A stretch of DNA of 64,000 nt. It comes from Massilia sp. PAMC28688 (GTDB lineage: Bacteria > Pseudomonadota > Gammaproteobacteria > Burkholderiales > Burkholderiaceae_D). Of the stretch, positions 10,664-42,458 are shown piece after piece. Under the pieces are notes generated by a model. The model was given only the letters and a program-made list of their open reading frames with translations, made no database searches and was not told where the DNA came from. A program made the position numbers and the translations under genes. How positions within the stretch are numbered: position 1 is the first letter of the stretch; every line of letters begins with the position of its first letter. The stretch covers positions 2,542,001-2,606,000 of the forward strand of contig NZ_CP080378.1 in NCBI RefSeq assembly GCF_019443445.1, in the 5' to 3' direction.

Positions 10664-11865
10664 AAGCGCTGCTGCCCGTTTGCCTGGTGGTGCAGCTGGC
10701 GCTGCTGGGCGCCTGCCAGCCACCGCCGGCGATCATGCCTGGCCCGGCGCTGGGCTTGCCAGCGCTGCCGCCGGCCCCGCGCGGCGCCGATACCGCGGCC
10801 GCGGTGGAACTGGGCCGCAAGCTGTTCATGGACCGGCGGCTGTCGCACAACAACACCATGTCCTGTGCCATGTGCCACATCCCGGAGCAAGGCTTTACGG
10901 CCACGCAACTGGGCACGGCGCTGGGTCTGGAAGGACGCACGCTGCGGCGCAATGCGCCCACCCTGCTCAACGTGGCCTATGTGCAGCCGCTGTTTCATGA
11001 TGGACGCGCCGAGTCCCTGCACCTGCAAGCCTGGGATCCGCTGCTCAATCCCATCGAGATGGGCAATCCCGATTCCTCCGGGCTGATCGACAAGCTGCGC
11101 CGGATGCCGGACTACGACGGCCTGTTCGAGGCTGCCTTCGACGGGGCGCAGGCGGACCGCCGCACGGTCGGGCTGGCCCTGGCCAGTTACCAGCGCACAC
11201 TGGTGGCGGGCAATTCCCGCTTTGACCGCTGGCATTACGGCAAGCAGGCCCATGCCCTCACGCCGCAGGAGCAGGCCGGCTTCAAGATCTTTACCGGCAA
11301 GGGGCGTTGCGTGGCCTGCCATGCGATCGGGAAGCAGCACGCTCTGTTTACCGACGGGCGCTTCCACAATACCGGGGTCGGCCTCGGCCCGCGCGCGGGC
11401 AGCCACCGGGTACGCCTGGCCGCCGGTATCGACATTGAGGTGACGGCGCAGTCGCTGGCCAGTGTCAGCGAGCCGCTGCAGGCGGACCTGGGGCGCTACG
11501 AAGTCACGCGCCTGCCGGCCCACCGCTACGCCTACCGCACTCCTGGCCTGCGCAACGTGGCGCTGACGGCGCCCTATATGCACGACGGTTCACTGGCCTC
11601 GCTGGAAGACGTGGTGGCGTTCTACCAGCGCGGCGGGATAGACAATCCGGCGCGCGACCCGCTGCTGCGGCCCTTGCAGCTCGGTGAGCAGGAAAAAGCC
11701 GACCTGAGCGCCTTTCTGCGCAGTCTGACCGGTGACAAGATCGACGCCCTGGCCGCTGCCGCGAGAAGGGGAAGTGGCGGCCATCCGCTACCGCCGGATA
11801 CAACCGCAACGGCCAGGCGCGGCGAACACGATTCCCCTGCCGGGCGCAAGGCGATGGGCCCCTAG
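10660..11865 (+). CDS. MauG-like di-haem cytochrome c peroxidase family lipoprotein
   Basis: The 401-residue protein has a lipoprotein signal (LLGAC, Cys19) and two c-type haem-binding motifs, CAMCH (69-73) and CVACH (217-221), arranged as in di-haem peroxidases and MauG, together with the RRNAPTLLNVAY, FHDGRAESL and APYMHDGSLASL blocks of that family. MauG-type enzymes carry out oxidative maturation of partner proteins; here the partner is presumably MtoX, consistent with the recurring mtoX-SCO-mauG arrangement. The start overlaps the SCO gene stop (ATGA). The C-terminal 40 residues are low-complexity. The stop codon overlaps that of the convergent exoprotein gene in the palindrome CTAG. Confidence 0.85.
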   Translation: MKALLPVCLVVQLALLGACQPPPAIMPGPALGLPALPPAPRGADTAAAVELGRKLFMDRRLSHNNTMSCAMCHIPEQGFTATQLGTALGLEGRTLRRNAPTLLNVAYVQPLFHDGRAESLHLQAWDPLLNPIEMGNPDSSGLIDKLRRMPDYDGLFEAAFDGAQADRRTVGLALASYQRTLVAGNSRFDRWHYGKQAHALTPQEQAGFKIFTGKGRCVACHAIGKQHALFTDGRFHNTGVGLGPRAGSHRVRLAAGIDIEVTAQSLASVSEPLQADLGRYEVTRLPAHRYAYRTPGLRNVALTAPYMHDGSLASLEDVVAFYQRGGIDNPARDPLLRPLQLGEQEKADLSAFLRSLTGDKIDALAAAARRGSGGHPLPPDTTATARRGEHDSPAGRKAMGP

Positions 11866-14800
11866 TTGGTACGCATCTCAAACAGGAAGTCGCCGCCCGG
11901 CTGGTGTCCTGCTGCCGACACGGAGCCATACTTCGGGGTTTGAGGGAAGTCCTTTTTCACGCGCGACTGCACTTCCGTAAAGATCTTGCTGCCGGGCTTC
12001 CAGTCGGCGATGGTGCCCACCACCTGCATCAGGTGCCACGCAAAGATGGAGTGGCCTCCCTTGCCTTCGTCAGCCACCGGCTCGTCGCCGCCCGAGGAGA
12101 GCACCACCACCGAACGCTTGGCCAGCACTTCCTCGACCTTCACATCCTGGCCGACGGCGTCCATGCCTTCGCGCGCGAACCCGCCCGAGTAGCAGCTGTC
12201 GGAAATGAGCGACATCTGGCGCGAACGGATGCCCGTCAGGAGCTGGGCAATGTCGCTGTTCGATACCCAGCTGGCCGGTTCGTTGACATTGGCGTCCGCC
12301 GCCAGCCAGTAGCCCGCGCCATTTTTTTCCAGCGAATAGCCGTGGCCGGCGTAGTAGATGACGACACTGTCGGACGGATCGACCCGGGTCGACAGCGCGT
12401 TCAGGGTGCGGATGATGTCGGCCTTGACGGGATTGCGCACGACCGTCACTTCGTAGCCGAGCTTGTCGGCGAGCTGGCGCGCGACTGCATCGACGTCGGG
12501 AATCGCGTTTTCCAGTTTGGGGATTTGCTTGTCCGTGTAGTCGTTAATCCCGAACAGCACGGCAATCTTGCGTTCGATCTGGGGCACACTGGCCATCTTC
12601 GGGCGCGTGCTTTTCACATCGGCCTGGGTGTGCGCCTTGGCCTGGTGGATTTCGTCGAGCTGGGCGCGGGTAATCAGGCAGGCTCCGGAACTGGCTTCGA
12701 CAATGGTGGTGCACGGCTGAACATCGGCCAGCCTGGGGTCGATGTCGAGCTTGTAGATGGCGTCGGCAAACAGCTTTTTCTTGAAATCCTTGCGCCGGTC
12801 AATCAGGTGCGCCAGCTCATTGTGGTTCATCGCGCCGATGGCGACGGGGCTGAAGCTGTTTGCCGCCACGGCTGCGCTTGATGTGGTGATCGCCACCGCC
12901 ACCTGCGGCGCGCCGGTGCCAAGGCCCGTCACGGCGCCGCTGACAGCTGCCGCCTGCTGGGGCGCGAGCGCCACCGGCAGTGCCGCCTGCACCGCCTGCT
13001 GCGAAGCCTGGGCGCTGCTGCCGGCGGCCGTCTCGGGCAAGCCCGCTGCAAGCCCGTCGAACCGGATCTGCAAGGCGCTGGCGTTGGCCGGGTGCTGGGC
13101 AAACACGTAGTTCGCCGCGACCAGGCCACTGCCCTCGATCGCGTAGCTGCCTGGCGCCGAGGACGCTGTGGCCGGGCTGGTCCACGCCAGGGTACCGCTG
13201 GCCGCGCCGGCCAGTTGGTCGCTTCCCTTCCAGCCCGTGACGGTGCCGGTGAAGCCGCCCGGGGTGGTGCCGGCGCTGCGCTCGGCCGGGGTGGCCTGGT
13301 AGAGCAGGGTGGCAGGCGTGATGGTGCCCACGTTGCCACGCGCGCTGGCGCTGACCAGGGTGGACGCATTGCTCAGGATGACGTTGCCGACCCGGTAGTT
13401 CGCTGCATCCGCGCCGCCAATGTCAAAACTGCCGCTCACGCTGACCTGCTTTTGCTGTCCCACGTTGGCCGAGTCGAAGCTGCCCGCGCTGGGGCCGGCC
13501 ACGGTGACGCGGTCGCCGGCGACCAGGCCGCCGAGCAGGAACTGGCCGGGCGCCAGCGTGGCGTCGGTCGTCGCGTCATACTCCTTGCTGACGCTGCCGG
13601 TGAGGCCGATCTCCAGCGGCCGGTGCATCACGTCGCCGCTGGTGGCAGCCGGCATGGACAGTACGTAGTTGGCCGCGTCCGCCCCGGTCAGGGTACCGCC
13701 GCTCACCGTCACGTTCTTGGACAGGCCCGCATCCCTGGTGTCGAACTGGCCGCTTACGCCTTCGAGCGCCAGCAGGTCGCCGGCCAGCGCATCTGCCAGC
13801 GACGCCGAGAGCGCGGCATCGCGGCTGCCGTCATATACCCTGGCAGCGACGCTCAGGTTGACGCCGACCGCGCGCGGTGTGATGTCGGCATGGGTGGTGG
13901 CCGGGCTGGCCAGCGTGTAGTTGCCCGCGTCGGCCCCGCTCAGGGTGGCGCCCGCAATCGTCACGGTCTTGGCACTGCCGGCGTGTTTGGTGTCGAACAG
14001 GCCGGTCGCGCCGCTGAAGCTGACCATATCCCCGCCAAGCACGCCCGACAGGGACCCTGTCAGCGTGGCGGCGCGGGTGGCATCGTAGACCTTGTTGGCC
14101 GCCGTGACGGTGGCGCTGACCGGCCTGGGCGTGATGGTGCCGACATTGCCGCTGGCGCTGGCGGTGACGAGGTTGGATGAGGCGCCAAGATAAACGTCAC
14201 CGATGCGGTAGTTCGATGCCTGTGCGCCGTCGATGGTGAAGGTGCCGGTGGCCGTGACCTGCTTGAACTGCCCGGCATGGCGCGAGTCGAAACTGCCCTG
14301 GGCCGGGCCGGTAACGGAGAGGCTTTCCCCGGCCAGTACGCCGTCAAGGCGGAACTGGCCGGCGCCCACGCTGGCGAGCAGTGTGGCGTCATACTCCTTG
14401 CGCACTTCGCCGGCAATGGCGATGGCCAGCGGCCGGTGGGTAATGTCGGCGTTGACCACGAGCGAGGGCGCGAGCGCGTAATTGCCTGCATCGGCGCCGG
14501 CCAGCGTGCCGGTGATCGTGACGGGCCTTGCCGCGCCCACGTCCTTGCTGTCGAACAGGCCGGTGGCGCCATCGAGCCATACCGTGTCGCCGCCCAGGAC
14601 ATCGGCCAGCGCGCCCGACAGCGCCGCGCTGCGGCTGCCGTCATAGACCTTGTTTGCCGCGCTCAGGCCGTTCGCGCCCATCGGCCGCGGCGTAATGTCG
14701 GCCTGCATGGCGGCGGCGCCGGTGAGCGTGTAGTTGGCGGCATCGGCGCCGGTCAGGGTGGCGCTGGAAAATGTCACGGTCTTGCCAAGCCCCACGTGCT

Positions 14801-17504
14801 TGCTGTCGAACAGGCCGCTGGCGCTGCCCAAAGCCACGCTGTCGCCGTCGATCATGCCGGACAGCGAACCGGACAGCGAGGCGGTGCGGGTGGCGTCGTA
14901 CGTCTTGTTGGCCGCCACCAGCTGGGCACTGAGGGCTTTGCGGGTGATGTCGGCAACATATGATTGCGTCACCCCGAACACGGGCAGGTCGATGGCGGTC
15001 ACCACGGCGAAGGCCGGGCTATCGTAGTCATACACGATGGCCTTGTCGACGCCGGCGTTCTTGTCCTGGAAGCTGGTCTCCATCACGACATTGCCGTGGT
15101 CAGGACTGAGCACAAGCCCTTCGGGCAAACCGCTTTGCCCGACCCACCGCGAGAACGATGCGGCGCTGGTGCCGTCATACTCGCGCGAAGCATCGACCCT
15201 GACCTGAGCGTGGACCGCATCGGCCATCAGCACGCCATGCTGGCCGATACCCGAGCGCAGCGGGGTGGCGTCGACGCCCGCGCCCACCTGCACGTAGGTG
15301 TAGCCGAGCTGCTCCAGGGCGCTGGCGGGGAAGGCCGTCTGGCCGGCAGCCAGGCGCATGACCCAGTAGCCATTGGGCGTGGCCAGCATGCTGCCGGTCG
15401 ATGTCAGGCTGCCGGTGGACATGTCGAGCGCGCCACCTTCGGCGCCGGCTGAAATCGTGCTGTTGTTGAGCGCGAAACTGGTGGGCGCCAGTACATTGAC
15501 ATAGTCGGTGGCGTCCAGGCTGGCGGCATTCAGTGCCACTGCAGCGGCGCTGATCGAGATCATGCTGAGGCCTTCCGACGAATCGGCGCGCACCACCGCA
15601 TTGTCAAGCCGGACGCTGTCGGCCTCGAAGGCGATGTCGCCGCCATCAACCGTGCTCGCGCCCGACAGGTCGACGCTGCCGGCGGTCATGGCAAGCATGC
15701 CGCCTGCCGTATTGAGGGTGCTGCCGGCGATCGTGATGTGCTGGGCGCTGCCATATTCGCCGGCCCCGCCGCCCAGCAGCAGGTAGCCGCCGCGCGTGAT
15801 GAAGCGCGCACCCTCGCGCAGATTGATGCCGCCGGCGCCGTCGCCATCGCTGTCGGCGGTCAGGCTGACCCGGATGGCGGAGGTGTCAACCGTCATTCCG
15901 GCGCCCGCATTGACGGTGATGTCATTGTGCGCTTCCAGGTTCAGCGAGGCCCCGGAGTCCGCCCTGAAGCTCCCCTGGCTGATGTTGGCCACTTCCGATC
16001 CCAGCACAATATTGCCCGATTGGACTCCGCTGCCATGCCCGCCGGCCCGCAGCGTCACGCCCGCGCCGCGTGCCAGCGCATACGAGAGCGCCTCGGTAGC
16101 GATGAAGGGTGCCGGGTCGCTGTTCCCGCTCCCGTTGCTGCGGGCCGTGATGCCGCCGGCGCCAAGCAGCCAGCTGCCTGGCCGGCCGCCGCCGCGCGTG
16201 ACATCGACCAGGGGATTGCCCTCGAGGACGAGGCCGGAGGTTTCGATCACGCCACCGTCACCGGTCTCCAGGCCGCCCCTGGCTTCGAGGGTGCCGAAGA
16301 CGCGCGTGCTGCCGCCGGACCATACGACGATCGTGCCGCCATTGCCGTTCATGTCGGTGGCGCTGGCGCTGATGCTGGCCGATGGCGCAATGTAGGTGTT
16401 GAGCGCGTGGTGGATGGCGGCGTCGGCACCGCCGGCGCTGCCGCCCACCAGCACTTCGCCCCCGGTCCAGCCGTTGGCGCTGATCCCAGCCGTACTGTCG
16501 ATGTTTACCTGCTGTCCCAGGAGATGGACGGAGCCGCCAATGTCACCGCTGTTGTCCGCGCTCACCGTTCCCGCCACCGTGGTGGTGCCGTCGCGCGAGT
16601 CGACCAGCAGCCTGCCGCCCAGGTAGGTGGTCGAATTGACGCTGGTCTGGCTGCCCGCTCCCAGCCCGATGTCGCCACTGGCCCGGATCACGATGCGCCC
16701 GACATTGTCGTAGTCCATGCTGTCGGCACGCACAATGCCATCCTGGTTGACGCTGGCGCCATGCAGGTCAATGCTGCCCCCTTCCGGGGCCAGCAGCGAG
16801 CCCAGGTTCACCGTCGTGTTTTCCGGCGCGCTGACCCGCACCGTGACATTCGGCGCGCCCGAGTCGACCAGCTCAATGCTCTTGCCGGCAGCCAGCACGA
16901 TCTTGCCCGTCTCGCTCTCGATGGCGCCTTCGTTGCGCACCGCGTCGCCAAGCAGCCAGAGGCGCCCGCCAAAGCTGGTCGTGATGGTGCCCCGGTTGAG
17001 CACCTGGCCCGCGGAGGACCCGCTGGTGGCAAACGAAAAGCGGTTGTTGATGAAGTCTTCGTTGGCAATGCCCAGCGTCGATGCCACCATGGCGCCCACA
17101 TCGACCCGGGCGCTGCTGCCGAACAGCACGCCGTGCGGATTGACCAGCCACACTTCGCCATTCGAGGTCAGGCTGCCCAGGATGCTGGAGGGATCATTGC
17201 CGACCACGCGGTTGAGCACCTTGCTCGATGCGCTTTCCTGCTCGAAGCGCACGCCATTGTTGGCGCCGATCGAAAAGCTTTCCCAGTTCAGCACTGCGTT
17301 GGGCGAATTGGTGATGGTCAGCTGCGATCCATCGATCACCGCCGGCGCCGTGCCGCTGACGACCTGCAGGCCGGTGGGCAGTTGCGCCCACGCGGGCGCC
17401 GCGGCGCCACCGAAGGCGGCAATGAGCGAGGCCACCAGCGCACGGCGCGCATGGCGGGTGCGGCGTGGCGACGAGTGGGGACGGTGTTGGCTTGGCAATT
17501 TCAT
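11862..17504 (-). CDS. Two-partner secretion exoprotein (TpsA/FHA-like) with YDG/MBG-type repeats and C-terminal caspase-fold domain
   Basis: The 1880-residue protein begins with an extended signal peptide (cleavage expected after AWA, residue 40) and a TPS/haemagglutination domain at about 42-160 that includes NSPNAVLNWESFSI and the secretion signature LVNPHGVLFG. A beta-helical region follows, then seven repeats marked by YD[AG] with LFDSKHVG/GADAANYTL blocks. Residues 1646-1880 form a peptidase C14 (caspase/metacaspase) domain: IAVLFGINDY, catalytic His1721 in YYAGHGY and catalytic Cys1771 in SDSCYSGG. The upstream frame adds 95 residues that look non-coding; the ATG at 17504 precedes the signal peptide. 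The cognate transporter gene lies 38 bases upstream. It probably reaches the cell surface or medium; the role of the protease there is unknown. Confidence 0.88.
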   Translation of the reverse strand: MKLPSQHRPHSSPRRTRHARRALVASLIAAFGGAAAPAWAQLPTGLQVVSGTAPAVIDGSQLTITNSPNAVLNWESFSIGANNGVRFEQESASSKVLNRVVGNDPSSILGSLTSNGEVWLVNPHGVLFGSSARVDVGAMVASTLGIANEDFINNRFSFATSGSSAGQVLNRGTITTSFGGRLWLLGDAVRNEGAIESETGKIVLAAGKSIELVDSGAPNVTVRVSAPENTTVNLGSLLAPEGGSIDLHGASVNQDGIVRADSMDYDNVGRIVIRASGDIGLGAGSQTSVNSTTYLGGRLLVDSRDGTTTVAGTVSADNSGDIGGSVHLLGQQVNIDSTAGISANGWTGGEVLVGGSAGGADAAIHHALNTYIAPSASISASATDMNGNGGTIVVWSGGSTRVFGTLEARGGLETGDGGVIETSGLVLEGNPLVDVTRGGGRPGSWLLGAGGITARSNGSGNSDPAPFIATEALSYALARGAGVTLRAGGHGSGVQSGNIVLGSEVANISQGSFRADSGASLNLEAHNDITVNAGAGMTVDTSAIRVSLTADSDGDGAGGINLREGARFITRGGYLLLGGGAGEYGSAQHITIAGSTLNTAGGMLAMTAGSVDLSGASTVDGGDIAFEADSVRLDNAVVRADSSEGLSMISISAAAVALNAASLDATDYVNVLAPTSFALNNSTISAGAEGGALDMSTGSLTSTGSMLATPNGYWVMRLAAGQTAFPASALEQLGYTYVQVGAGVDATPLRSGIGQHGVLMADAVHAQVRVDASREYDGTSAASFSRWVGQSGLPEGLVLSPDHGNVVMETSFQDKNAGVDKAIVYDYDSPAFAVVTAIDLPVFGVTQSYVADITRKALSAQLVAANKTYDATRTASLSGSLSGMIDGDSVALGSASGLFDSKHVGLGKTVTFSSATLTGADAANYTLTGAAAMQADITPRPMGANGLSAANKVYDGSRSAALSGALADVLGGDTVWLDGATGLFDSKDVGAARPVTITGTLAGADAGNYALAPSLVVNADITHRPLAIAIAGEVRKEYDATLLASVGAGQFRLDGVLAGESLSVTGPAQGSFDSRHAGQFKQVTATGTFTIDGAQASNYRIGDVYLGASSNLVTASASGNVGTITPRPVSATVTAANKVYDATRAATLTGSLSGVLGGDMVSFSGATGLFDTKHAGSAKTVTIAGATLSGADAGNYTLASPATTHADITPRAVGVNLSVAARVYDGSRDAALSASLADALAGDLLALEGVSGQFDTRDAGLSKNVTVSGGTLTGADAANYVLSMPAATSGDVMHRPLEIGLTGSVSKEYDATTDATLAPGQFLLGGLVAGDRVTVAGPSAGSFDSANVGQQKQVSVSGSFDIGGADAANYRVGNVILSNASTLVSASARGNVGTITPATLLYQATPAERSAGTTPGGFTGTVTGWKGSDQLAGAASGTLAWTSPATASSAPGSYAIEGSGLVAANYVFAQHPANASALQIRFDGLAAGLPETAAGSSAQASQQAVQAALPVALAPQQAAAVSGAVTGLGTGAPQVAVAITTSSAAVAANSFSPVAIGAMNHNELAHLIDRRKDFKKKLFADAIYKLDIDPRLADVQPCTTIVEASSGACLITRAQLDEIHQAKAHTQADVKSTRPKMASVPQIERKIAVLFGINDYTDKQIPKLENAIPDVDAVARQLADKLGYEVTVVRNPVKADIIRTLNALSTRVDPSDSVVIYYAGHGYSLEKNGAGYWLAADANVNEPASWVSNSDIAQLLTGIRSRQMSLISDSCYSGGFAREGMDAVGQDVKVEEVLAKRSVVVLSSGGDEPVADEGKGGHSIFAWHLMQVVGTIADWKPGSKIFTEVQSRVKKDFPQTPKYGSVSAAGHQPGGDFLFEMRTN
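13500..15180 (-). repeat. Seven in-frame YDG/MBG-type repeats inside the exoprotein gene
   Basis: Copies are recognised by codons for YDAT/YDGS/YDGT starting near 15179, 14900, 14644, 14393, 14087, 13835 and 13580, so the period is 251-306 bases (84-102 residues). Each copy carries a GLFDSKHVG- or SFDSRHAG-like block and most a GADAANY-like block. The repeats differ in sequence, so they are diverged domain duplications rather than a slippage-prone DNA array. Extracellular adhesins commonly use such domains as stalks. Confidence 0.7.
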
Positions 17505-17542
17505 GGCGGGATCCTCGGGGATCGATGGCAAAGTGGCGGGAC

Positions 17543-19120
17543 TTAAAACACCAGGTTGAGCGCGGCGTGGGCGCGGATGTCGCCGGGTTCGGAAGTGGGG
17601 CCGCGCTTCATGGCACGCCCGATATCGAGGCTGGCGCTGGCCAGCTTTTGCGCGCTCAGGCGCACGCCCACGCCGGTTCCGGTCAGCTCGCAGGTGCGCT
17701 GCAGGCCGCTGCACGGCATGTCGCCATGGTTCCTGACCAGGCCATGGTCGAGAAACAGGTAAGGGCGCAGGCGCACACCCTGTTGCCACTCGCGGGCAGG
17801 CACGGCGAGTTCGAGGCGCAGCAGCAGGCCGGCGTCGCCGGCCAGTTCCCGCTCGGCGTAGCCGCGTACGCTGTTGGCGCCGCCGATGCCGAATTTTTCA
17901 GCCGAGATCAGCGGATCGGCGCTCATTTGCGCTTCCGCGCGCAGGTTGATGCCGCTCCCGGCGCCAAGCGGCCTGTCGACAAACCCGGACAGGCGCGAGA
18001 GCAGGTAGCGCCGCTGCGCGCCCGGCCGGGCCGCCTCGAAGGTTGCCTGCGAACTGCCGGCGATGTTGCTGGCCAGCGAAGCGTTATAGCCGTAGTTGAG
18101 GGCGGCGCCCCCTTGCTGGCCGGTGTACGACAGCGTCAGCGGCACTGTCGTCACGTCCACCGCGGCCGAGCCGCAGGCGGCGGCGCCAAAGTCGCCGATG
18201 GAGCAGTCATCCTTGTAGGCGCGCCAGTCCAGCCCGAGCGTGACGTGGTGGTCGTAATCGCCGCGCCGTTCCAGGTGGCGATTGGCGCGCAGGCCGACGA
18301 TGGTGCCCTTGCCGGTAAACGACAGCGGGCCGGCGGGGGTAGCGGTCTTGCCGTTGCTGACGGTGGAATAGGCGACAAAGGCGTCGAACGAGGCAGCCAG
18401 GGCGTACAGCGGCACGCGGTAGCCGGCACTGAGAATTTGCACCCGGTTGGGGTAACCGGGCGAGGTTTGCAGCTGCAGCGTGCCCACGTGGTCGCGGTCA
18501 AACAGATTGGCATGCTCGACGCCGATGCTGACCCGGTGCCGTCCCGTCATCGCGGTGCCGGTATTGTTGTAGCCAAAAAGGTACTGCACCGGGCGCGAAT
18601 CGGCCACGTCCACCTGGGCATCGATGGTGCCCGCTTCCTTGCCCGCTGCCAGGCTCACATTGACGTGCTTGGCCGGGTTGTTGTTGGTCAGCTGGATGTC
18701 GCGGTTGATCGCCCGCACGCTTGGGGTGCTGCCTTCGCGCAGATGCGGCAGCCCGGCGCGGATATTGGCAGTGGCAAAGTGCTTGTTGCCGGTCACCCGC
18801 ACCACGGCGATCTTGCCCTCGACCACGCGCACCACGATCTGGCCATTGGTCGCTTCCTGGGGCGGCACATAGGCCACCACGCCGCCATAACCGGCGTCGC
18901 GATAGGCATTCTGGATGCGCGCGGCCAGTGCCTTCAGTTCACTCAGGGGAGGTTGCTGGGATACTGCCGAGGTCAGCTCGGCCAGGGTCTGCGGGGCCAG
19001 CAGGGTATTGCCTTCAACGCGCACGCTGGTGGCGCCGCCCTGGCCCGATGCGCTGCCCGCGAGCAGCAGAAGGGAGGGGCAGGCGAACAGCAAAACCCAG
19101 TTGCAAAAGCGCGCGGTCAT
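17543..19120 (-). CDS. Two-partner secretion outer-membrane transporter (TpsB, ShlB/FhaC/HecB family)
   Basis: The 525-residue protein has a signal peptide (LLLLAGSASGQ), a POTRA region (about 30-180, with VRVEGNTLLAP, VVEGKIAVVRVTGNKHF and IRAGLPHLREG) and an Omp85-type beta-barrel ending in the aromatic residue expected for barrel insertion (LVF). The GANSVRGYAE block carries the VRGY motif of loop 6 that is required for secretion in FhaC. It is first in a two-gene minus-strand operon with the caspase-bearing exoprotein, whose TPS domain it should recognise. The start at 19120 follows an AT-rich region shared with the divergent ompA-like gene. Confidence 0.9.
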   Translation of the reverse strand: MTARFCNWVLLFACPSLLLLAGSASGQGGATSVRVEGNTLLAPQTLAELTSAVSQQPPLSELKALAARIQNAYRDAGYGGVVAYVPPQEATNGQIVVRVVEGKIAVVRVTGNKHFATANIRAGLPHLREGSTPSVRAINRDIQLTNNNPAKHVNVSLAAGKEAGTIDAQVDVADSRPVQYLFGYNNTGTAMTGRHRVSIGVEHANLFDRDHVGTLQLQTSPGYPNRVQILSAGYRVPLYALAASFDAFVAYSTVSNGKTATPAGPLSFTGKGTIVGLRANRHLERRGDYDHHVTLGLDWRAYKDDCSIGDFGAAACGSAAVDVTTVPLTLSYTGQQGGAALNYGYNASLASNIAGSSQATFEAARPGAQRRYLLSRLSGFVDRPLGAGSGINLRAEAQMSADPLISAEKFGIGGANSVRGYAERELAGDAGLLLRLELAVPAREWQQGVRLRPYLFLDHGLVRNHGDMPCSGLQRTCELTGTGVGVRLSAQKLASASLDIGRAMKRGPTSEPGDIRAHAALNLVF

Positions 19121-19304: not shown

Positions 19305-19841
19305 ATGAAGATCCCATCACTGCTGGCAGCGTGCATCCTGGCCGCCGCCCTGCCTGCACAGGGCCAGGAAACCCCGGTGATCGGCGAAGGACAGGCCGAA
19401 ATGGGCGTGCTGGTCGATGCGCTGGCGCCCAAGGCGCCGGTGCGCACCCGCGGCATCGGTCTGGCGCGCGACAAGGCAGCTGCCAAGCCTGCCGCCCCGG
19501 CCAAGGTATCGCTCCTGATTACCTTCGAGCCCAATTCGGCGGCGCTGACAGCGAGCTCGCGCCAGTCGCTCGAAGTGGTCGGCCAGGCGCTGGCGTCGGA
19601 GAAGCTCTCGCCGTTCCGCTTTGCCATTGAAGGCCATGCCGACCCGCGCGGACTGGCGGCCAACAACCTGAAGCTGTCGCAGCTGCGCGCCGAATCGGTC
19701 CGCGCTTACCTCGTCAACACCATGCAGATCGATGGCGCGCGCCTGGACGCGATCGGCAAGGGCGACCGCGAGCTGATGAACAAGGCAGTGCCGGAAGCGC
19801 CGGAAAACCGCCGCGTCACCATCGTCAACCTGTCGCGCTGA
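19305..19841 (+). CDS. OmpA-family peptidoglycan-associated protein
   Basis: The 178-residue protein has a signal peptide (CILAAALPAQGQ) and a C-terminal OmpA-like domain with LITFEPNSAALT, IEGHADPRG, NLKLSQLRAESVRAYL and ENRRVTIV, containing the Asp and Arg that bind diaminopimelate. There is no transmembrane barrel, so it is a soluble periplasmic or weakly anchored envelope protein. AGGAAGAG precedes the ATG at 19305. It is divergent from tpsB across a 184-base AT-rich gap and convergent with the DUF4384 kinase gene, ending 20 bases from it; a shared function with these neighbours is inference. Confidence 0.85.
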   Translation: MKIPSLLAACILAAALPAQGQETPVIGEGQAEMGVLVDALAPKAPVRTRGIGLARDKAAAKPAAPAKVSLLITFEPNSAALTASSRQSLEVVGQALASEKLSPFRFAIEGHADPRGLAANNLKLSQLRAESVRAYLVNTMQIDGARLDAIGKGDRELMNKAVPEAPENRRVTIVNLSR

Positions 19842-19861: not shown

Positions 19862-21640
19862 TCAGGGCACGACTTCCCTGATTGAAAACGCGGCGGCGCC
19901 GTAAGTGCCGGCGCACGGCGTGCCGGCGCAGTCGGCAACGCCGGCCAGCAGGGGCGTGGCGCCGCGGTGCGTGCGCTGCAGCTCGGCGATGCGCGCTACC
20001 GGAAAGCTGGAAAACGGCGCCCCTGCTGCCAGGCCGGACGGCCCGAAGTCGCGCGGCGTGTCCGACACCATCACCACAAAATGATCGATGCCTGCCGGGC
20101 CATACGCCATGATCGGCCAGGCCGGGCGCGGCAGGCTGATGGTCTGGCCGGCGCCGATGCGGTTGGCCTTGTCCCTGGCGTTGGGGAACAGCATGACCGG
20201 GTCCTTGCTGTCGGTGCCGACCATGAGCACATACACATGGCCGGCATGCGTCGAATGGATGGAAAACTTGATGTAATCCTTTTCAATCCGCACCCGGCTG
20301 TTGGCCAGGTCCACCGTGACCTTGCGTTCGGGTTCTGCTTCGGCCAGGATGGCGTCCAGGGCCGCAACGGAATCAAACGGGGCCGGTTCGGCAGCGGTGT
20401 CGGCGGCCGCGGGCGCTGCCGCCGTGACAGGGGCAGCGGGGGTAGCGAGGGCGGCAGGGTCGGTCCCTGCGGCCGCCACGGCCGGTGCCGGTGCAGTGGC
20501 GATACCCTCTGACGGCCCGCCCGGCGCATCGCCGCGGCCCAGCAGAAAGGCCGCCAGGCCCGCCAGGGCCAGGCCTGCCAGGCCAAGTCCCGCCACCATC
20601 ATCGTGCGTTGCGGCTTCGCGCTCACCGGCGCCGCCGGTGTGGCCGGGGCGGCCGGCATGGCCGGCGGCGCCATGTGGGTACGCTCCCCCGCTTCCAGTC
20701 CAAGCAAGCTTCTGAAGGCTGCCACGCTTTGCGGCCGGTCGGCCGGCTTGAAGGCGAGCGCGCCATCGATCGCCTCCAGGAAGCCGCTGCTGAAGCGATC
20801 GGCATGGCGGCTGGCCAGCGGCACGTAGGGATCGGTCATCATGCGGCTCATGGCAGGCGGCGGGGGATTGCCGTCAATTACAAAGTGAACCACCGAGGCC
20901 AGCGCGTACAGGTCGGTCCACGGGCCCTGGCCCATGCCGGGCATTTCCGCATACTGCTCGATCGGCGCGTAGTTCTGCTTGAGGATGACGGTAAAGGCGT
21001 TGTTGCTGTCGCCTACCGCGCGCCGCGCCGCGCCGAAATCGAGCAGCAGCGGGCGCCCCTCTTCGAGCATCAGGATGTTGTCGGGCGCGATATCGCGATG
21101 GTAGCAGCGGCTGGCATGGAGCTGTTCGAGTGCATCGAGCAGCGGGGCCAGCAGGGCCTTGAGCCAGGCTTCGTCCGGCGGCGCCGCGCGCGCCAGCAGC
21201 GCCTGTTTGAGTGTGGGGCCGCGGTAATAGGGCATGACCATGTAGGCCGTGCCATTGTCTTCCCAGAAGCGGTACACCTTGACCAGCGAAGGGTGATCAA
21301 ACTGGGCCAGCAGCTTGGCTTCATTGATGAAGCTGCGCCGGCCCGCCTCCAGGCTGTCGGCATGCTGCGACGACAGGACGCTGACGTGGGCGCCAATACC
21401 GCGCCGCGCGAACGACGGCATGTATTCCTTGAGCGCGACCTGGCGTTCGAGCGAACTGTCGTACGCGAGGTAGACAATGCCGAAGCCGCCGATGCCCAGC
21501 ACGCCCGTGATTTCAAATTCGCCCACGCGGGTGCCGTTTGGCAGCACGCTGTCATTGCCGCCCGCTGCCGCTGGCGGCACGGGCACGGAAGCACCCTGGC
21601 CAGTGGCCAGGATGGTGCGGTCATCTTCTGCAGCACTCAT
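19862..21640 (-). CDS. Membrane Ser/Thr protein kinase with C-terminal DUF4384-like domain
   Basis: The 592-residue protein has an N-terminal Hanks-type kinase domain (about 40-315): glycine loop GIGGFG (49-54), Lys71 in VALKEY, catalytic HRD (181-183) within HRDIAPDN, and DFG (201-203). The usual Lys two residues after HRD-[LI] is Ala, a variant seen in some bacterial kinases. A single membrane segment (about 347-368) and an Ala/Pro linker lead to an extracytoplasmic domain (about 430-560; SIHSTHAGHVYVLMVG, MLFPNARDKANRI) resembling DUF4384, a domain otherwise often paired with caspase-fold proteins. The frame is open 126 bases further upstream, but the ATG at 21640 gives the natural N-terminus. 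It lies between the caspase exoprotein cluster and the T6SS locus and might serve either. Confidence 0.85.
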   Translation of the reverse strand: MSAAEDDRTILATGQGASVPVPPAAAGGNDSVLPNGTRVGEFEITGVLGIGGFGIVYLAYDSSLERQVALKEYMPSFARRGIGAHVSVLSSQHADSLEAGRRSFINEAKLLAQFDHPSLVKVYRFWEDNGTAYMVMPYYRGPTLKQALLARAAPPDEAWLKALLAPLLDALEQLHASRCYHRDIAPDNILMLEEGRPLLLDFGAARRAVGDSNNAFTVILKQNYAPIEQYAEMPGMGQGPWTDLYALASVVHFVIDGNPPPPAMSRMMTDPYVPLASRHADRFSSGFLEAIDGALAFKPADRPQSVAAFRSLLGLEAGERTHMAPPAMPAAPATPAAPVSAKPQRTMMVAGLGLAGLALAGLAAFLLGRGDAPGGPSEGIATAPAPAVAAAGTDPAALATPAAPVTAAAPAAADTAAEPAPFDSVAALDAILAEAEPERKVTVDLANSRVRIEKDYIKFSIHSTHAGHVYVLMVGTDSKDPVMLFPNARDKANRIGAGQTISLPRPAWPIMAYGPAGIDHFVVMVSDTPRDFGPSGLAAGAPFSSFPVARIAELQRTHRGATPLLAGVADCAGTPCAGTYGAAAFSIREVVP

Positions 21641-22140
21641 GAATGGATGGGAATTGGGCCGCGCAATCGAACCGGCTCGGCGCCGGTGAACCCGCCGCGG
21701 ACACCGGGCCGGCGCGAGGCTGGCATGCCGCGCCGGTCTGCCAGTTGAGGCAACAAACGCTGGCAAGGTATACCAAAAAAACTACTTTGTACAGCTTGCC
21801 AGACAATGGCAGGACCTGGTTCCGGGCACTGCGGCTGTCACACGGGCAAGTGTTGTTTGACAAGGTTTCCCGAGCTTTCCATGGCTAAACTCGCAAGAAA
21901 TATCCATGGCGGGAATCGTAAAAAGTCAATACAAATCTTTGCATTGAGACCAAAAATTTCGCGTGCTTTTTTGGTTTGTTCTCAATTATAGTGGCCAGCG
22001 TGTTAAAGATCTTCTCTTAACATGATTTGAAAAGCTATGGCGCACGATGCTTCGTGGGCCCGGCCCTGCCTGAACAATCAGGCAAGCTGCCGACTGGAAC
22101 TGGTGGTGTTTTTTATATGCGGTTCGCCGCGGGAGTGTGA
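21641..22140. other. Intergenic region between the DUF4384 kinase and tssA, probable divergent promoters
   Basis: This 500-base gap starts GC-rich and turns AT-rich after about 21770, with T-rich and A-rich stretches at 21771-21790 and 21920-21975. A TTGACA at 21857-21862 and a TATAGT at 21987-21992 occur, but neither has a correctly spaced partner. No gene is supported. The transcripts for tssA (right) and the kinase (left) should begin here; GGGAGTG just before 22141 is the tssA ribosome binding site. Confidence 0.5.
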
Positions 22141-23193
22141 ATGAGCGTGATCGACATTGACGCCTTGTTGCTGGAAATTGACCCGGCAGCACCTTGTGGC
22201 CCCAATCTCGAATACGATCCGGTCTTTGTCGCGCTGGAGCAGGAATCGCTCGGCAAGCCGGAAGTGCAGTACGGCGACACCATTACGCCGGCCGTGCCCC
22301 CTGACTGGAAGGTGGTGCGGCGCATGGCCACCGAATTGCTCGAGCGCAGCCGCGACCTGCGCCTGGCGGTGCACCTGCTGCGCGCCAACCTGGCCCTGTC
22401 CGGCATGCCGGGCTTTGCCGACAGCATCGCCCTGATCGAGCGCCTGCTCGAAGAGCGCTGGGACAGCATCCATCCCCAGCTCGATCCTGACGACGACCTT
22501 GACCCCACCCTGCGCATCAATTCGCTGGCCATTCTTGCCGACACCGGCACGCTGCTGCGCGAACTCAAGGATGCCACCCTGGTGGTATTGCCCGGCCTTG
22601 GGCCGCTGAGCATCAAGATGCTGGAAGTGGCTAATGGCGAAGTGCCGCCGGCGGCCGGGCAGGAAAAGCTGGCCATCGGTTCCATCGAGCGCGCCGCCGC
22701 CGACGTGGCGCCCGAACAGATGGCCGCAGCGGTCGATGCGCTGGCGCGGGCGCTCGCTGCCACCGTCAACATTGAAGTCATCCTGGTGCGCCAGGTTGGC
22801 AGTTCGCAGGCGCTCAACCTCGACAGCCTCACCCGTCCCCTGCGCAAGGGGCACGAATTCCTGGTGCGCTCGCAGCAGGGAGGAGATGCCGGTGGCGGCG
22901 GCGAGGCGGCAGAGGGCGAGCCGGCCGGCGCCGACGGCGGCGCGCGCGCGGCCCGCACCGCCATCAGCGGCGACATCGCCAGCCGCGACGACGTGGTGCG
23001 CATGCTCGACAAGCTGGTGCAGTACTACAGCCGGCACGAGCCATCGAGCCCGATTCCGATCCTGCTCGAGCGCGCCAAGCGCCTCGTCCCCATGAATTTC
23101 TTCGAGATCATGGAAGACCTGGCGCCGGAAGGCATGGCGCAGCTGGCCGTCATCCGCGGACCGGATGGTTCGGCGCCGGCCGACGAGTATTAA
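22141..23193 (+). CDS. tssA: Type VI secretion protein TssA (ImpA N-terminal domain family)
   Basis: TssA contacts the baseplate and sheath and caps or primes tail-tube assembly. The 350-residue protein starts with the ImpA_N region: LLLEIDPAAPCGPNLEYDP, then DWKVVRRMATELLERSRDLRLAV and LLEERWDSIHPQLDPDDD, all family hallmarks. The C-terminal third (SRDDVVRMLDKLVQYYSRHEPSSPIPILLERAKRL in segments) is the conserved short TssA C-terminus with the PSSPIP motif. It is the first gene of the plus-strand T6SS operon and is followed after 80 bases by tssB. Confidence 0.95.
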   Translation: MSVIDIDALLLEIDPAAPCGPNLEYDPVFVALEQESLGKPEVQYGDTITPAVPPDWKVVRRMATELLERSRDLRLAVHLLRANLALSGMPGFADSIALIERLLEERWDSIHPQLDPDDDLDPTLRINSLAILADTGTLLRELKDATLVVLPGLGPLSIKMLEVANGEVPPAAGQEKLAIGSIERAAADVAPEQMAAAVDALARALAATVNIEVILVRQVGSSQALNLDSLTRPLRKGHEFLVRSQQGGDAGGGGEAAEGEPAGADGGARAARTAISGDIASRDDVVRMLDKLVQYYSRHEPSSPIPILLERAKRLVPMNFFEIMEDLAPEGMAQLAVIRGPDGSAPADEY

Positions 23194-23288
23194 GCAGCAA
23201 CCGCAACGACGCACGCCGTCGCCAAGCATTCGCCAGGCAGTATCGGGCAATACGACATTCATGTTGTTCAATCGTGGGGGTATCAATC

Positions 23289-23789
23289 GTGGGTAAAGAG
23301 AGTAGCCAGAAGTTCATCGCGCGCAACCGTGCGCCGCGCGTGCAGATCGAGTACGACGTCGAAGTCTATGGCGCCGAAAAGAAAATCCAGTTGCCATTCG
23401 TGATGGGCGTGATGGCCGACCTGAGCGGCCAGCCGGCCGATCCGCTGGCCCCTGTCGCCGAGCGCAAGTTTCTGGAAATCGATGTCGACAATTTCGACGA
23501 GCGCCTGAAGGCCATGAAGCCGCGCGTGGCGGTACAGGTGCCCAACACGCTCACCGGCGAAGGCAATATGTCGGTCGAGATGACGTTTGAAAACATGGAT
23601 GACTTCACCCCGGCCGCCATTGCGCGCAAGGTCGCACCCCTGGCCAAGCTGCTCGAAGCGCGCGGCCAGCTGGCCAACCTGATGACCTACATGGACGGCA
23701 AGACCGGCGCCGAAGACCTGATCGCCAAGCTGCTGGCCGAGCCGGCCCTGATGCAGGCGCTCACCTCCGCCCCCAAGCCACAAGAATAA
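23289..23789 (+). CDS. tssB: Type VI sheath small subunit TssB (VipA)
   Basis: TssB and TssC form the contractile sheath in the cytoplasm. The 166-residue protein has the family start GKESSQKFIARNRAPRVQI, the segment LPFVMGVMADLSG and FDERLKAMKPRV. I chose the GTG at 23289, eight bases after a GGGGG ribosome binding site, because it gives the length and N-terminus typical of TssB; another GTG 15 bases upstream (23274) is in frame. tssC follows after 21 bases. Confidence 0.95.
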   Translation: MGKESSQKFIARNRAPRVQIEYDVEVYGAEKKIQLPFVMGVMADLSGQPADPLAPVAERKFLEIDVDNFDERLKAMKPRVAVQVPNTLTGEGNMSVEMTFENMDDFTPAAIARKVAPLAKLLEARGQLANLMTYMDGKTGAEDLIAKLLAEPALMQALTSAPKPQE

Positions 23790-23810
23790 TCTGACTGCTG
23801 GAGAATAACG

Positions 23811-25298
23811 ATGGCTGAACTACAAGCACAAACTGAACAAACGGGCGGCACGCTCGAGATGAGCGATTTCGGCAGCCTGCTGCAGAAAGAATTCAAGCCG
23901 CAGTCGGACAAGGCCAAGGAATCGGTCGAAAACGCCGTGCGCACCCTGGCCGAGCAGGCCCTGCAGGGCAGCAACCTCATTTCCGGCGACGTGCTGGGCA
24001 CGATTGAAAGCCTGATTGCCGCCCTTGACCGCAAGCTGAGCGAACAGATCAACCTGATCTTGCACACGCCCGAGTTCCAGTCGGTGGAAGGGGCCTGGCG
24101 CGGCCTGCACCACCTGGTCAGCAATACCGAGACCGATGAAACGCTCAAGATCCGCGTGATGAACATCTCCAAGAACGAACTGGGCAAGACGCTCAAGAAG
24201 TTCAAGGGCACGGCCTGGGACCAGAGCCCGATCTTCAAGAAGATGTACGAGGAAGAGTTTGGCCAGTTCGGCGGCGAGCCTTTTGGCGCCATCGTGGCCG
24301 ACTACTATTTCGACAACAGCGCACCGGACGTGGAACTGCTGACCGGGATGGCAAAGGTGGCGGCCGCCGCTCACGCGCCGTTCATTTCGGCCGCCGCGCC
24401 ATCGGTCATGCTGATGGAATCGTGGCAGGAGCTGGCCAATCCGCGCGACCTGACCAAGATTTTCCAGACCCCGGAACACGCCGCCTGGCGCTCGTTCCGC
24501 GAGTCCGAGGATTCGCGCTATGTGGGCCTGGCCATGCCGCGCTTCCTGGCGCGCCAGCCGTACGGCGCCAAGACCGACCCGGTGGAGGAATTCGATTTCG
24601 AGGAAGATACCTCGGCCGCCCAGAGCAAGAACTACACCTGGGCCAATGCGGCCTACGCCATGGCCGTCAACATCAACCGCTCGTTCAAGGAATACGGCTG
24701 GTGCTCGCGCATTCGCGGCATCGAGTCCGGCGGCGCGGTGGAAGGCTTGCCGGTGCATTCCTTCCCGACCGATGACGGCGGCGTCGACATGCAGTGCCCG
24801 ACCGAGATCGCCATCTCCGACCGGCGCGAAGCGGAACTGGCGGCCAATGGCTTCATGCCGCTGGTGCACAAGAAAAATACCGACTTTGCCGCCTTCATCG
24901 GCGCCCAGTCGCTGCACAAGCCGGCCGAATACGATGACCCGGATGCGACGGCCAACGCCAACCTGGCGGCCCGCCTGCCTTACCTGTTCTCGACCTGCCG
25001 CTTTGCCCACTACCTCAAGTGCATCGTGCGCGACAAGATCGGCTCGTTCAAGGAACGCGACGAGATGCAGCGCTGGCTGACCAACTGGATCACCCAGTAC
25101 GTCGACGGCGATCCGGTCAATTCGAGCGAAAACACCAAGGCGCGCAAGCCGCTGGCCGCCGCCGAAGTGGTGTTGGAGGAAGTCGAAGGCAATCCAGGGT
25201 ATTACAGCTCCAAGTTTTACCTGCGTCCCCACTACCAGCTCGAAGGCCTGACCGTGTCGCTGCGCCTGGTGTCGAAGCTGCCTTCGGCAAAGGGCTGA
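23811..25298 (+). CDS. tssC: Type VI sheath large subunit TssC (VipB)
   Basis: TssC is the large sheath subunit and recycling substrate of ClpV. The 495-residue protein shows the family blocks LHTPEFQSVEGAWRGLHHLV, KIRVMNISKNEL, PFGAIVADYYF, the AAHAPFISAAAPS segment and the C-terminal YSSKFYLRPHYQLEGLTVSLRLV. The ATG at 23811 follows GGAGAA. A strong hairpin with a T run downstream separates it from hcp. Confidence 0.97.
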   Translation: MAELQAQTEQTGGTLEMSDFGSLLQKEFKPQSDKAKESVENAVRTLAEQALQGSNLISGDVLGTIESLIAALDRKLSEQINLILHTPEFQSVEGAWRGLHHLVSNTETDETLKIRVMNISKNELGKTLKKFKGTAWDQSPIFKKMYEEEFGQFGGEPFGAIVADYYFDNSAPDVELLTGMAKVAAAAHAPFISAAAPSVMLMESWQELANPRDLTKIFQTPEHAAWRSFRESEDSRYVGLAMPRFLARQPYGAKTDPVEEFDFEEDTSAAQSKNYTWANAAYAMAVNINRSFKEYGWCSRIRGIESGGAVEGLPVHSFPTDDGGVDMQCPTEIAISDRREAELAANGFMPLVHKKNTDFAAFIGAQSLHKPAEYDDPDATANANLAARLPYLFSTCRFAHYLKCIVRDKIGSFKERDEMQRWLTNWITQYVDGDPVNSSENTKARKPLAAAEVVLEEVEGNPGYYSSKFYLRPHYQLEGLTVSLRLVSKLPSAKG

Positions 25299-25331
25299 TC
25301 GGGGCCGGCATCGCTGTCTGTAGCAAAGTCA

Positions 25332-25360
25332 GGGCAGGTACATCCGTGCCTGCCCATTTT
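25332..25360 (+). terminator. Rho-independent terminator or attenuator between tssC and hcp
   Basis: GGGCAGGTAC (25332-25341) pairs with GTGCCTGCCC (25346-25355) around an ATCC loop, giving a 10-bp stem with one G-U pair, followed by ATTTT. It lies inside the otherwise co-directional T6SS operon, so it should reduce read-through into hcp or protect the tssABC message, with hcp probably also transcribed from its own start. Confidence 0.65.
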
Positions 25361-25404
25361 ATCCACATCCGCCGGCATCGTTCCGGCACACTAGGGGAAA
25401 TACA

Positions 25405-25896
25405 ATGGCATTAGATATGTTCATCAATATGGGCGCCAACATCGTCGGCGAATCGGCTGACAAGGTGCAAGGTCCAAAGGGCGACATCGACGTCCTGGCC
25501 TGGAGCTGGGGCATGTCGCAGTCCGGCACCACCCACATGGGCAGCGGCGGCGGCGCCGGCAAGGCCAACTTCCAGGACCTGTCGTTCACCAAGTACATCG
25601 ACGCGTCCAGCAATGCCTTGATGATCTCGCTGGCCAAGGGCACCCACATCCCGAAAGTGGTGCTGCTGGCGCGCAAGGCCGGTGAAGGCCAGAAGACCTA
25701 CCTCAGCATCGAGATGGAAGACGTCATGGTCACGTCGCTCTCGACCGGCGGCAGCGGCGGTGAAGACCGCCTGACGGAAAACGTCACGCTCAACTTCGCC
25801 AAGGTGAAGTTTGCCTACGCACCGCAGTCGAAGACCGGCGCCAAGGGCGGCGACAAGGAATTCGTCTGGGACATCGCAGGCAACGCAGAGAAGTAA
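25405..25896 (+). CDS. hcp: Type VI tube protein Hcp (TssD)
   Basis: Hcp hexamers stack into the inner tube expelled by the sheath and can chaperone small effectors. The 163-residue protein has the usual length and pattern: an N-terminal MFINMGANIVGES-type strand, the DIDVLAWSWGMSQSG block, DLSFTKYIDASSNAL and a C-terminal FVWDIAGN. AGGGGAAA precedes the ATG. It has hairpins on both sides, so its transcript may be separately abundant, as is common for hcp. Confidence 0.96.
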   Translation: MALDMFINMGANIVGESADKVQGPKGDIDVLAWSWGMSQSGTTHMGSGGGAGKANFQDLSFTKYIDASSNALMISLAKGTHIPKVVLLARKAGEGQKTYLSIEMEDVMVTSLSTGGSGGEDRLTENVTLNFAKVKFAYAPQSKTGAKGGDKEFVWDIAGNAEK

Positions 25897-25908
25897 TCAG
25901 GTAAAGCC

Positions 25909-25930
25909 GGGCGGCGCGCCTGCGCCGTCC
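25909..25930 (+). terminator. GC-rich hairpin after hcp
   Basis: GGGCGGCGC (25909-25917) and GCGCCGTCC (25922-25930) form a 9-bp stem with one G-U pair around GCCT, 13 bases after the hcp stop. There is no T run, so it is more likely a 3' stabiliser or partial terminator of the hcp message. Confidence 0.4.
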
Positions 25931-25952
25931 AATCACACTGGCCGGGACGCTC

Positions 25953-26792
25953 ATGACTGCACAACAATTTATCCGCGAAGGCAAGCTGGCCGAGGCACTG
26001 GCCGCACTGCAGGACATGGTGCGCAAGGATGCGGCCAACGCCAGGCACCGCGTGTTCCTGTTCCAGTTGCTGTGCGTGATGGGACAGTGGAAACGCGCCC
26101 TCACGCAGCTCAATGTGGCGGGCGAACTCGATCCGGCCACCTTGCCCATGGTGCAAACCTACCGCGAAGCGATCCAGTGCGAAGCGCTGCGCGGCGAAAT
26201 TTTCAAGGCGGCGCATGCGCCCCTCATTTTTGGCGCCCCGCCGGCCTGGATGGCGCTCCTGCTCGAAGCAATCAAGGCCGACGCCGCGGGCGACCTGGCG
26301 CGTGCCGACGATGCCCGGGCCCGGGCATTCGATGCCGCCCCCGCCTGCGCCGGCAGCATCGATGGCCAGCGCTTCAACTGGCTGGCAGACGCCGACCAGC
26401 GCCTCGGACCGGTAATGGAAGCGGTGATCAATGGCCGCTACTTCTGGATTCCCATGCAGCGCATCAGCCGCATAGCGTTCGACCCTCCGAGCGACCTGCG
26501 CGACACGGTCTGGATGCCGGCCTCGTTCACCTGGACCAATGGCGCGCAAACGGTGGGCCTGGTGCCGACCCGCTATGTCGACACCCTCTCCAGCGGCGAC
26601 GATGCGCTGTTGCTGGCGCGCCGTACCGAATGGATCGAAGACGGGGAACTGGCCGGGCACGGGATGGGCCAGCGCATGCTGGTCACCGACGCCGGCGAAT
26701 ATGCCCTGATGGACGTGCGCGTGATCGAATTTGACGTGCGCGAGGAAGACGACGCCGGCGGCGCCGTTGACGCAGACGCGGCGGCGCGCTGA
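25953..26792 (+). CDS. tagJ: Type VI accessory protein TagJ (ImpE family)
   Basis: TagJ binds TssB and modulates sheath recycling by ClpV in systems related to the Pseudomonas H1-T6SS. The 279-residue protein begins with a TPR-like helical half (REGKLAEALAALQDMVRKD, HRVFLFQLLCVMGQW) and continues with the ImpE block FNWLADADQRLGPVMEAVINGRYFW, split around DADQRLGP, then RYVDTLSSGDDALLLARRTEW. One base separates its stop from the tssE start, indicating tight coupling. Confidence 0.92.
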   Translation: MTAQQFIREGKLAEALAALQDMVRKDAANARHRVFLFQLLCVMGQWKRALTQLNVAGELDPATLPMVQTYREAIQCEALRGEIFKAAHAPLIFGAPPAWMALLLEAIKADAAGDLARADDARARAFDAAPACAGSIDGQRFNWLADADQRLGPVMEAVINGRYFWIPMQRISRIAFDPPSDLRDTVWMPASFTWTNGAQTVGLVPTRYVDTLSSGDDALLLARRTEWIEDGELAGHGMGQRMLVTDAGEYALMDVRVIEFDVREEDDAGGAVDADAAAR

Positions 26793-26793
26793 C

Positions 26794-30190: not shown

Positions 30191-30220
30191 TACAAACCAA
30201 AAACCACAACAGGGGAAGTC

Positions 30221-39309: not shown

Positions 39310-39362
39310 TGCGGTGCGCGAAAATGACTGTCGCGGCCGCCGCCAGTTTTAGGGCTTGGTTG

Positions 39363-39391
39363 TTGAACATAACCCTGTGGCAACGTATAAT
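39363..39391 (+). promoter_or_regulatory. Sigma-70-type promoter upstream of tagH
   Basis: TTGAAC (39363-39368), a 17-base spacer, and a perfect TATAAT (39386-39391) precede the tagH start at 39466 by about 75 bases. It is the clearest promoter match in the window and implies a separate tagH-tssK-tssL-tssM-tagF transcript. Confidence 0.65.
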
Positions 39392-42452: not shown

Positions 42453-42458
42453 CGCGCC

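Follow-up and report, generated by a model that had tools for sequence, protein, structure and literature searches.

A two-partner secretion exoprotein ending in a caspase domain recurs with a kinase, OmpA and type VI secretion gene set and may serve as its input

Introduction

Type VI secretion systems (T6SSs) can be controlled by the kinase PpkA, which, according to excerpts of three published accounts, phosphorylates Fha and is counteracted by PppA and TagF, with inputs that vary by species (PMC10482370, PMC6082577, PMC12607579). The PpkA inputs described in the same excerpts are TagQRST, RtkS, which binds the periplasmic part of PpkA, and the outer-membrane protein TssW; in Acinetobacter, OmpA has been put forward as a T6SS contact sensor (PMC10482370, in part). 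The TagQRST-PpkA system of P. aeruginosa, the RtkS-PpkA system of S. marcescens and the TssW-PpkA-Fha system of A. citrulli resemble the locus described here: the membrane kinase has a periplasmic domain, its gene and those for Fha, PppA and TagF lie within or next to the T6SS cluster, and an outer-membrane or periplasmic partner is also encoded. The present locus departs from them in its predicted periplasmic domain, DUF4384, and in its partners, a caspase-bearing stalk of the two-partner secretion (TPS) type and an OmpA-family protein. To our knowledge, the sensing of outside contact or damage by T6SS kinases has been worked out for few species only, and the roles of bacterial caspases beyond the cytoplasm have been little explored.

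The exoprotein itself can be compared with CdrA of the CdrA-CdrB/LapG system, with which it shares a TPS domain, an MBG-type stalk and a C-terminal Cys pair; unlike CdrA, it holds a cysteine protease of its own, located after the Cys pair. The LepA protease of P. aeruginosa is trypsin-like, and we know of no link between it and a kinase or a T6SS. LepA is likewise exported by two-partner secretion, as stated in the relevant part of a TPS review (PMC5422565), and the protease of the present locus differs from it in being caspase-like. In its fold, His-Cys dyad and conserved acidic residues this protease resembles the MALT1 paracaspase, metacaspases and bacterial orthocaspases (all C14), unlike which it is carried on a secreted stalk together with a helical Cys-pair pre-domain. 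Orthocaspases also occur with DUF4384, according to an excerpt of PMC7475262.

Our search of the open-access literature returned no paper that combines two-partner secretion with a caspase domain. The word "caspase" is absent from the TPS review PMC5422565 and from PMC10482370 and PMC12607579, as are "two-partner" from PMC10482370 and "hemagglutinin" from PMC12607579; in the excerpts of PMC11077975 and PMC2275737, the word occurs, respectively, in a line that concerns another effector and in the title of a reference only.

Domains of the exoprotein

The window (the 64,000-nucleotide stretch of Massilia sp. PAMC28688 DNA that was analysed) contains on its minus strand a gene, here called tpsA-C14 (11862..17504, with the ATG at 17504 and the stop at 11862), that encodes a TPS exoprotein of 1,880 residues in which the caspase domain comes last. 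The reading frame has no internal stop, and its N terminus, judged by eye, resembles a signal peptide. All domains lie on the same strand. The TPS secretion domain PF05860 (16761..17312, Pfam E-value 1.2e-26) has as PDB relatives EtpA, the entry 2odl ("Adhesin") and a heme/hemopexin-binding protein. The stalk (13086..15185, outer limits approximate) consists of seven repeats, for which Pfam gave six YDG matches (4.5e-107) and one MBG_2 match (1.2e-08), and the seven YD-type motifs occupy residues 774-1307. A helical pre-domain (12621..12800) contains Cys1598 (codon 12711-12713) and Cys1609 (codon 12678-12680), and it is followed by the Peptidase_C14 domain (11922..12572, E-value 2.7e-23) with His1721 (codon 12342-12344) and Cys1771 (codon 12192-12194). 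A caspase fold was predicted for the C terminus, in which the residues of the His-Cys dyad are intact.

The tpsB gene (17543..19120, minus strand) is separated from tpsA by 38 bases and encodes an Omp85/ShlB-type transporter with a POTRA_2 domain by Pfam. The N-terminal TPS domain, the signal-peptide-like start and the adjoining TpsB with its POTRA domain and Omp85 barrel place the exoprotein in the TpsA class. Genome-wide, at E-values up to 0.001, the sole C14 domain and the sole TPS domain found were both those of tpsA.

These results bear out the preliminary description of the gene as a TPS exoprotein with seven YDG/MBG-type repeats, a C-terminal C14 domain with both catalytic residues, and its own TpsB transporter alongside; we share its judgement that this architecture, with an intact C14 domain, is unusual. 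Two objections that it had raised against itself, a gene split into two proteins and a non-C14 fold in the C-terminal part, fell to the single reading frame and the predicted fold.

On the other side of tpsA lies a gene for a MauG/MbnH-type di-haem peroxidase (10660-11865), which is convergent with tpsA, the two stops overlapping by 4 bases. Because the next gene is convergent, no immunity gene follows tpsA on the same strand, in agreement with the earlier remark that a CdiI-like gene is lacking. As a partner, mauG was rejected, since its query matched the window alone among the loci compared, a set to which L033-L111 did not belong.

Neighbouring genes in the window

Beyond tpsB there is a gene for an OmpA-family protein with a signal-peptide-like start (19305..19841, plus strand, assigned by Pfam). 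Peptidoglycan binding is known for the OmpA family, and such a gene adjoins TPS-C14 in 15 of the 26 loci considered below. The next gene (19862..21766, minus strand) encodes a Ser/Thr kinase with HRD and DFG motifs and a DUF4384 tail; its topology, taken from hydrophobicity alone, has one transmembrane segment at about residues 391-409, with DUF4384 predicted to be periplasmic. A structure model of DUF4384 had a pLDDT of 62 and gave no fold match at E-values up to 0.001.

The T6SS genes follow on the plus strand, with tssA, tssB, tssC, hcp, impE, tssE (gp25), tssF, tssG and tssH at 22141..32944 and vgrG, fha/tagH, tssK, tssL, tssM and tagF at 37336..48088; sheath, baseplate, ClpV, VgrG and membrane components are all represented. 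Between tssH and vgrG (33199-36827) lie four open reading frames that had no Pfam or NCBIfam match and are candidate T6SS effectors or adaptors. The minus strand (48088..50436) carries a gene for a PP2C phosphatase, which we call PppA-like although its match was below the Stp1 cut-off, and one for a second Ser/Thr kinase, in which no transmembrane segment stands out. The cluster thus has the parts of a T6SS threonine-phosphorylation module: a membrane kinase with a predicted periplasmic domain, Fha, a PppA-like phosphatase and TagF. Since the second kinase lacks a clear transmembrane segment, it is the DUF4384 kinase that could receive a signal from the periplasm, and this kinase is likely the input to the cluster.

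An anti-phage defence role was considered and rejected: PADLOC returned a weak caspase match for the C14 part (1.3e-08), numerous kinase-domain matches for the kinase, with mad6 as the best (9.7e-43), and weak ZorB matches for OmpA, all of which we read as generic.

Recurrence of the fusion and its active site

A scan of contigs kept 79 loci with C14 relatives, 13 of which have TPS and C14 in one frame; together with 15 from the window and other genomes, this gave 28 distinct fused loci. A TpsB relative is present in all 28 (truncated where the contig ends in L036). Among the 13, the hosts that bear a name are Massilia, Ramlibacter, Malikia, a metagenome-assembled genome (MAG) of Rhodocyclaceae, Nitrosospira, Nitrosomonas, Sterolibacterium, Desulfobulbaceae, a further deltaproteobacterial MAG and a MAG labelled "Chitinophaga pinensis". 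The last label is probably wrong, because the C14 domain is sister to that of Malikia and the gene order is the same. Recurrence in several genera, and the fact that the fusion unites the single C14 and the single TPS domain found in the genome at that threshold of 0.001, argue that it did not arise by chance.

Relatives of the C-terminal part of the window's protein (E-values up to 1e-40) were found in 15 of 392 family genomes and in 16 of 399 genomes at the level of the order. Because 186 of the 392 family genomes have a C14 domain of some kind, the window-type C14 is patchy in distribution. Some of these relatives are not fused, the caspase standing alone in G410, G472, G506 and G573; the sequences of the order-level matches G544 and G723 were left out of this sorting. 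The same-genus genomes G011, G052 and G075 have a different, shorter TPS protein without C14.

GHG and DSC motifs were present in all 30 fused rows (28 distinct, of which 15 came from motif-free searches and 13 from a scan with the motif in one of its six patterns). The catalytic His and Cys were invariant in an alignment of 54 rows, part of which had been drawn by a pattern holding the His motif, and so were D102, which aligns with a MALT1 Asp, and D201 of the DSC motif. Such conserved acidic residues would point to a preference for a basic P1 residue.

Linkage to kinase-DUF4384, OmpA and T6SS genes

The genes around TPS-C14 were counted in the 26 fused loci that span 14 kb or more, after exclusion of L144, L145 and L160 (duplicates of L033, L034 and L046) and of L036 and L042, which are shorter. 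T6SS genes were found in 15, a kinase-DUF4384 gene in 14 and OmpA (E < 1e-20) in 15. An exported C14-DUF4384 fusion was found in two further loci (L154, L166), and 19 of the 26 had at least one of these four features. Some fused loci were extended by a second stretch; in all 15 loci with T6SS genes, one such gene was already present in the first. Loci in which the frame is cut, broken or without TPS were not scored as fused (L034, L035, L043, L044, L147, L150, L152, L155, L161 and L165); of these, L147 has the kinase, OmpA and T6SS genes, L155 has Fha and TssK, and L035, L043 and L044 have OmpA.

The arrangement differs between loci, which speaks for function. In L038 and L045 the order is tpsB-tpsA-tssA-tssB-tssC on a single strand, with no kinase tail or OmpA in view. 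In L041 it is tpsB-tpsA-fha-pppA-ompA, with the kinase and tagF-tssM on the opposite strand, and the same order is seen in L039 with one extra kinase and in L040 with a gap. L046 has the kinase and OmpA and no T6SS gene within about 36 kb, and L157 has only OmpA within about 38 kb.

Two sets of control loci were evaluated. Among 30 TPS loci without C14, which were hand-picked from a single family and four of which cover only 9-16 kb, T6SS genes were found in one (L268, tssA adjoining), and a DUF4384 tail and OmpA in none; other matches were a kinase without DUF4384 in L266, a PP2C phosphatase in L269 and an OmpA part of TssL in L259, which was not scored as T6SS. In the stretches covered of 12 T6SS clusters (mostly the tssA side, 8-20 kb) from 11 genomes without a reported TPS-C14 relative, with TssC 73-83% identical to that of the window, a DUF4384 tail, OmpA, C14 and TPS were each found in 0 of 12. 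Fisher tests on the linkage gave values from 9e-6 to 1e-7, which are a rough guide only because the rows are related. That TPS-C14 belongs to the kinase/OmpA/T6SS gene set is, in our view, very likely.

Caspases with DUF4384 and without a stalk

DUF4384 was found in 36 of 195 family genomes. Of 30 DUF4384 loci, 18 have a kinase in the same frame (three of them with DUF4384 below the Pfam cut-off), and in at least nine of these 18 a C14 gene lies within 2.5 kb (two of the nine with DUF4384 under the cut-off). Five of the remaining nine come from genomes that have no C14 among the matches listed (G003, G030, G070, G095 and G103). C14 lies within the DUF4384 frame in four of the 30 loci, as it does in L154 and L166. 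In L210 (G045), the genes after that of the kinase-DUF4384 protein encode a caspase and an unknown protein, both with signal-peptide-like N termini, and then OmpA. A hydrophobic segment is present at the N terminus of four of the paired caspases, in which the search expression matched the His motif and failed to match the Cys motif. That the two domains are fused in some genomes and neighbours in others suggests that C14 and DUF4384 meet, and the position of DUF4384 after the transmembrane segment of the kinase points to the periplasm as the meeting place.

Proposed pathway and alternative readings

The preliminary description was right about an unusual TPS exoprotein with an intact C14 domain and no CdiI-like gene, and it listed contact sensing among three guesses at the role; it missed the OmpA, kinase-DUF4384 and T6SS neighbours that recur with TPS-C14. 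Gene context alone gives no direction of signalling. The recurrence, across a range of bacteria, of a caspase-bearing surface protein with a transmembrane kinase and an OmpA-type protein next to T6SS genes suggests an outside-to-inside switch for the T6SS and not a lone secreted protease, and we see about an even chance that tpsA-C14 is an input to the T6SS. Tentatively, and with the balance leaning against so specific a proposal, the locus could encode a trans-envelope receptor in which the adhesin stalk controls a periplasmic caspase that acts on DUF4384 of the kinase and so licenses T6SS firing.

As expected for its family, TpsB would export the TPS domain and the YDG/MBG stalk, and the Cys-pair pre-domain and caspase may remain on the periplasmic side of the outer membrane. 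When the stalk touches a surface or a cell, the caspase would be freed or activated and would bind or cut a periplasmic target, the top candidate for which is DUF4384 of the kinase, with OmpA anchoring the assembly to peptidoglycan. By analogy with PpkA systems, the kinase would phosphorylate Fha, PppA and TagF would oppose it, and the T6SS would assemble. Against this proposal count the seven fused loci without any partner, the separate location of the parts in G098, the absence of T6SS genes from the stretches of L046 and L157, the T6SS genes of L038 and L045 without kinase tail or OmpA, the TPS protein of L268 with a kinase and tssA and no C14, and the poor DUF4384 model. The stalk, the protease, the OmpA protein and the kinase encoded here could each be deleted singly in environmental bacteria, and for DUF4384, which is without an assigned function, a testable role emerges: that of the portion of signalling proteins that faces the caspase.

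The location of the caspase in this proposed receptor bears on the Cys pair. According to a TPS review, TpsA proteins with a C-terminal disulfide (HMW1, HxuA) are locked in the TpsB pore with the C terminus periplasmic (PMC5422565), and CdrA is described as combining MBG repeats with a cysteine hook (PMC7616799). A Cys pair was found ahead of C14 in all 30 fused rows, with the two residues 7-11 positions apart and the pair 17-66 residues before C14. Because the pair is also present in caspases that stand alone and have a signal-peptide-like N terminus (L050, L051, L163 and L164), anchoring in TpsB is not its necessary function; its role as a pure TpsB hook is weakened, and the hook is one reading among others. 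The earlier placing of the protease itself outside the cell is doubtful, given the periplasmic C termini of disulfide-anchored TpsA proteins (PMC5422565, in part), the pair in every fused row, and the signal-peptide-like starts of the five stalkless caspases examined that lie beside kinase-DUF4384 genes.

Autoprocessing, in which the caspase would cut its own linker and release the stalk as LapG releases CdrA, with an indirect T6SS link through control of detachment or adhesion, is rather unlikely in our view. It would fit the position of C14, which ends 0-16 residues from the C terminus in 29 of 30 fused rows (109 in L149), after a variable linker and the Cys-pair pre-domain, and the CdrA-type repeats, CdrA being hook-anchored and cut by a periplasmic protease according to excerpts of PMC7616799 and PMC11898600; however, it leaves both the kinase-DUF4384 and OmpA partners and the stalkless C14 partners unexplained. 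A somewhat lower probability is given to a protease displayed on the adhesin stalk and acting on outside proteins: the stalk is of the adhesin type, the active-site residues are intact and LepA is a precedent for a TPS-exported protease (PMC5422565, in part), but the linkage to the kinase, OmpA and T6SS, the Cys pair ahead of C14 and the exported caspase relatives without a stalk all count against it.

That the adhesin module is merely located in T6SS islands is less probable again. Seven of the 26 fused loci had no partner at the thresholds used in the stretch read (L037, L047, L048, L049, L151, L153 and L162; L048 has a weaker OmpA match of 1e-15, and L037 another Ser/Thr kinase), in G098 the kinase, OmpA and T6SS genes are on a different contig, with 29 kb or more to the nearest contig end, and in L268 a C14-less TPS protein is found beside tssA. 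This reading has to account for the fact that the linkage involves either end of T6SS clusters and extends over several families, compared with one in 30 of the other TPS loci.

The degree of conservation differs along the exoprotein. Identity to the window in five same-family relatives was 71-75% for C14, 57-69% for the TPS domain and 44-48% for the stalk, and in three remoter relatives it was 56-65, 55-62 and 30-36%, respectively. C14 was therefore more conserved than the stalk in eight of eight comparisons and than the TPS domain in seven of eight, the exception being L039 (TPS domain 60%, C14 59%); the stalk also varies in type, with YDG/MBG repeats in the window, whereas L039 and L041 have FG-GAP repeats. 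Delivery of a CDI-like toxin into neighbouring cells with C14 as its tip, one sense of the earlier guess that the protein could act on other cells, would explain a C-terminal enzyme on a TpsA protein and is rejected as very improbable, since C14 is conserved above the stalk, the opposite of the variable CdiA-CT, and no immunity-like gene follows tpsA.

Other relatives of the caspase and the gene set

In a tree of 101 rows, from which duplicates, C14 matches weaker than 1e-30 and matches shorter than 180 residues were excluded, the 28 fusions share one group of 43 rows with relatives that stand alone or are truncated; its support of 90/77 is below the tool's star. Adjacent to this group are Magnetococcales and alphaproteobacterial proteins, and in the three that were scanned C14 ends a DUF4347-type protein. 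In these (L053, L057 and L063), C14 is C-terminal on DUF4347 proteins that also have parts of the Ig-like, cadherin or beta-propeller type, and the caspase looks to be carried on another type of stalk.

Four further arrangements were observed. In L147 (6001-11791, G350), TpsA-C14 is in two frames, due to a broken gene or a sequencing error. In L268 (2-13367), tssA, a Ser/Thr kinase and a TPS protein, the latter without C14 and the set without a DUF4384 tail, are found with TpsB adjoining. In the Kiloniellaceae-type loci L073, L074, L075 and L079, long C14 proteins are encoded at a distance of about 5 kb from genes for a PppA-like protein and a kinase, with TagF also present in L079. In a gammaproteobacterial MAG (L086, 7157-18540), a kinase, a separate C14 protein, TpsB and a C14-less TpsA are found in a row, as a split part of the set.
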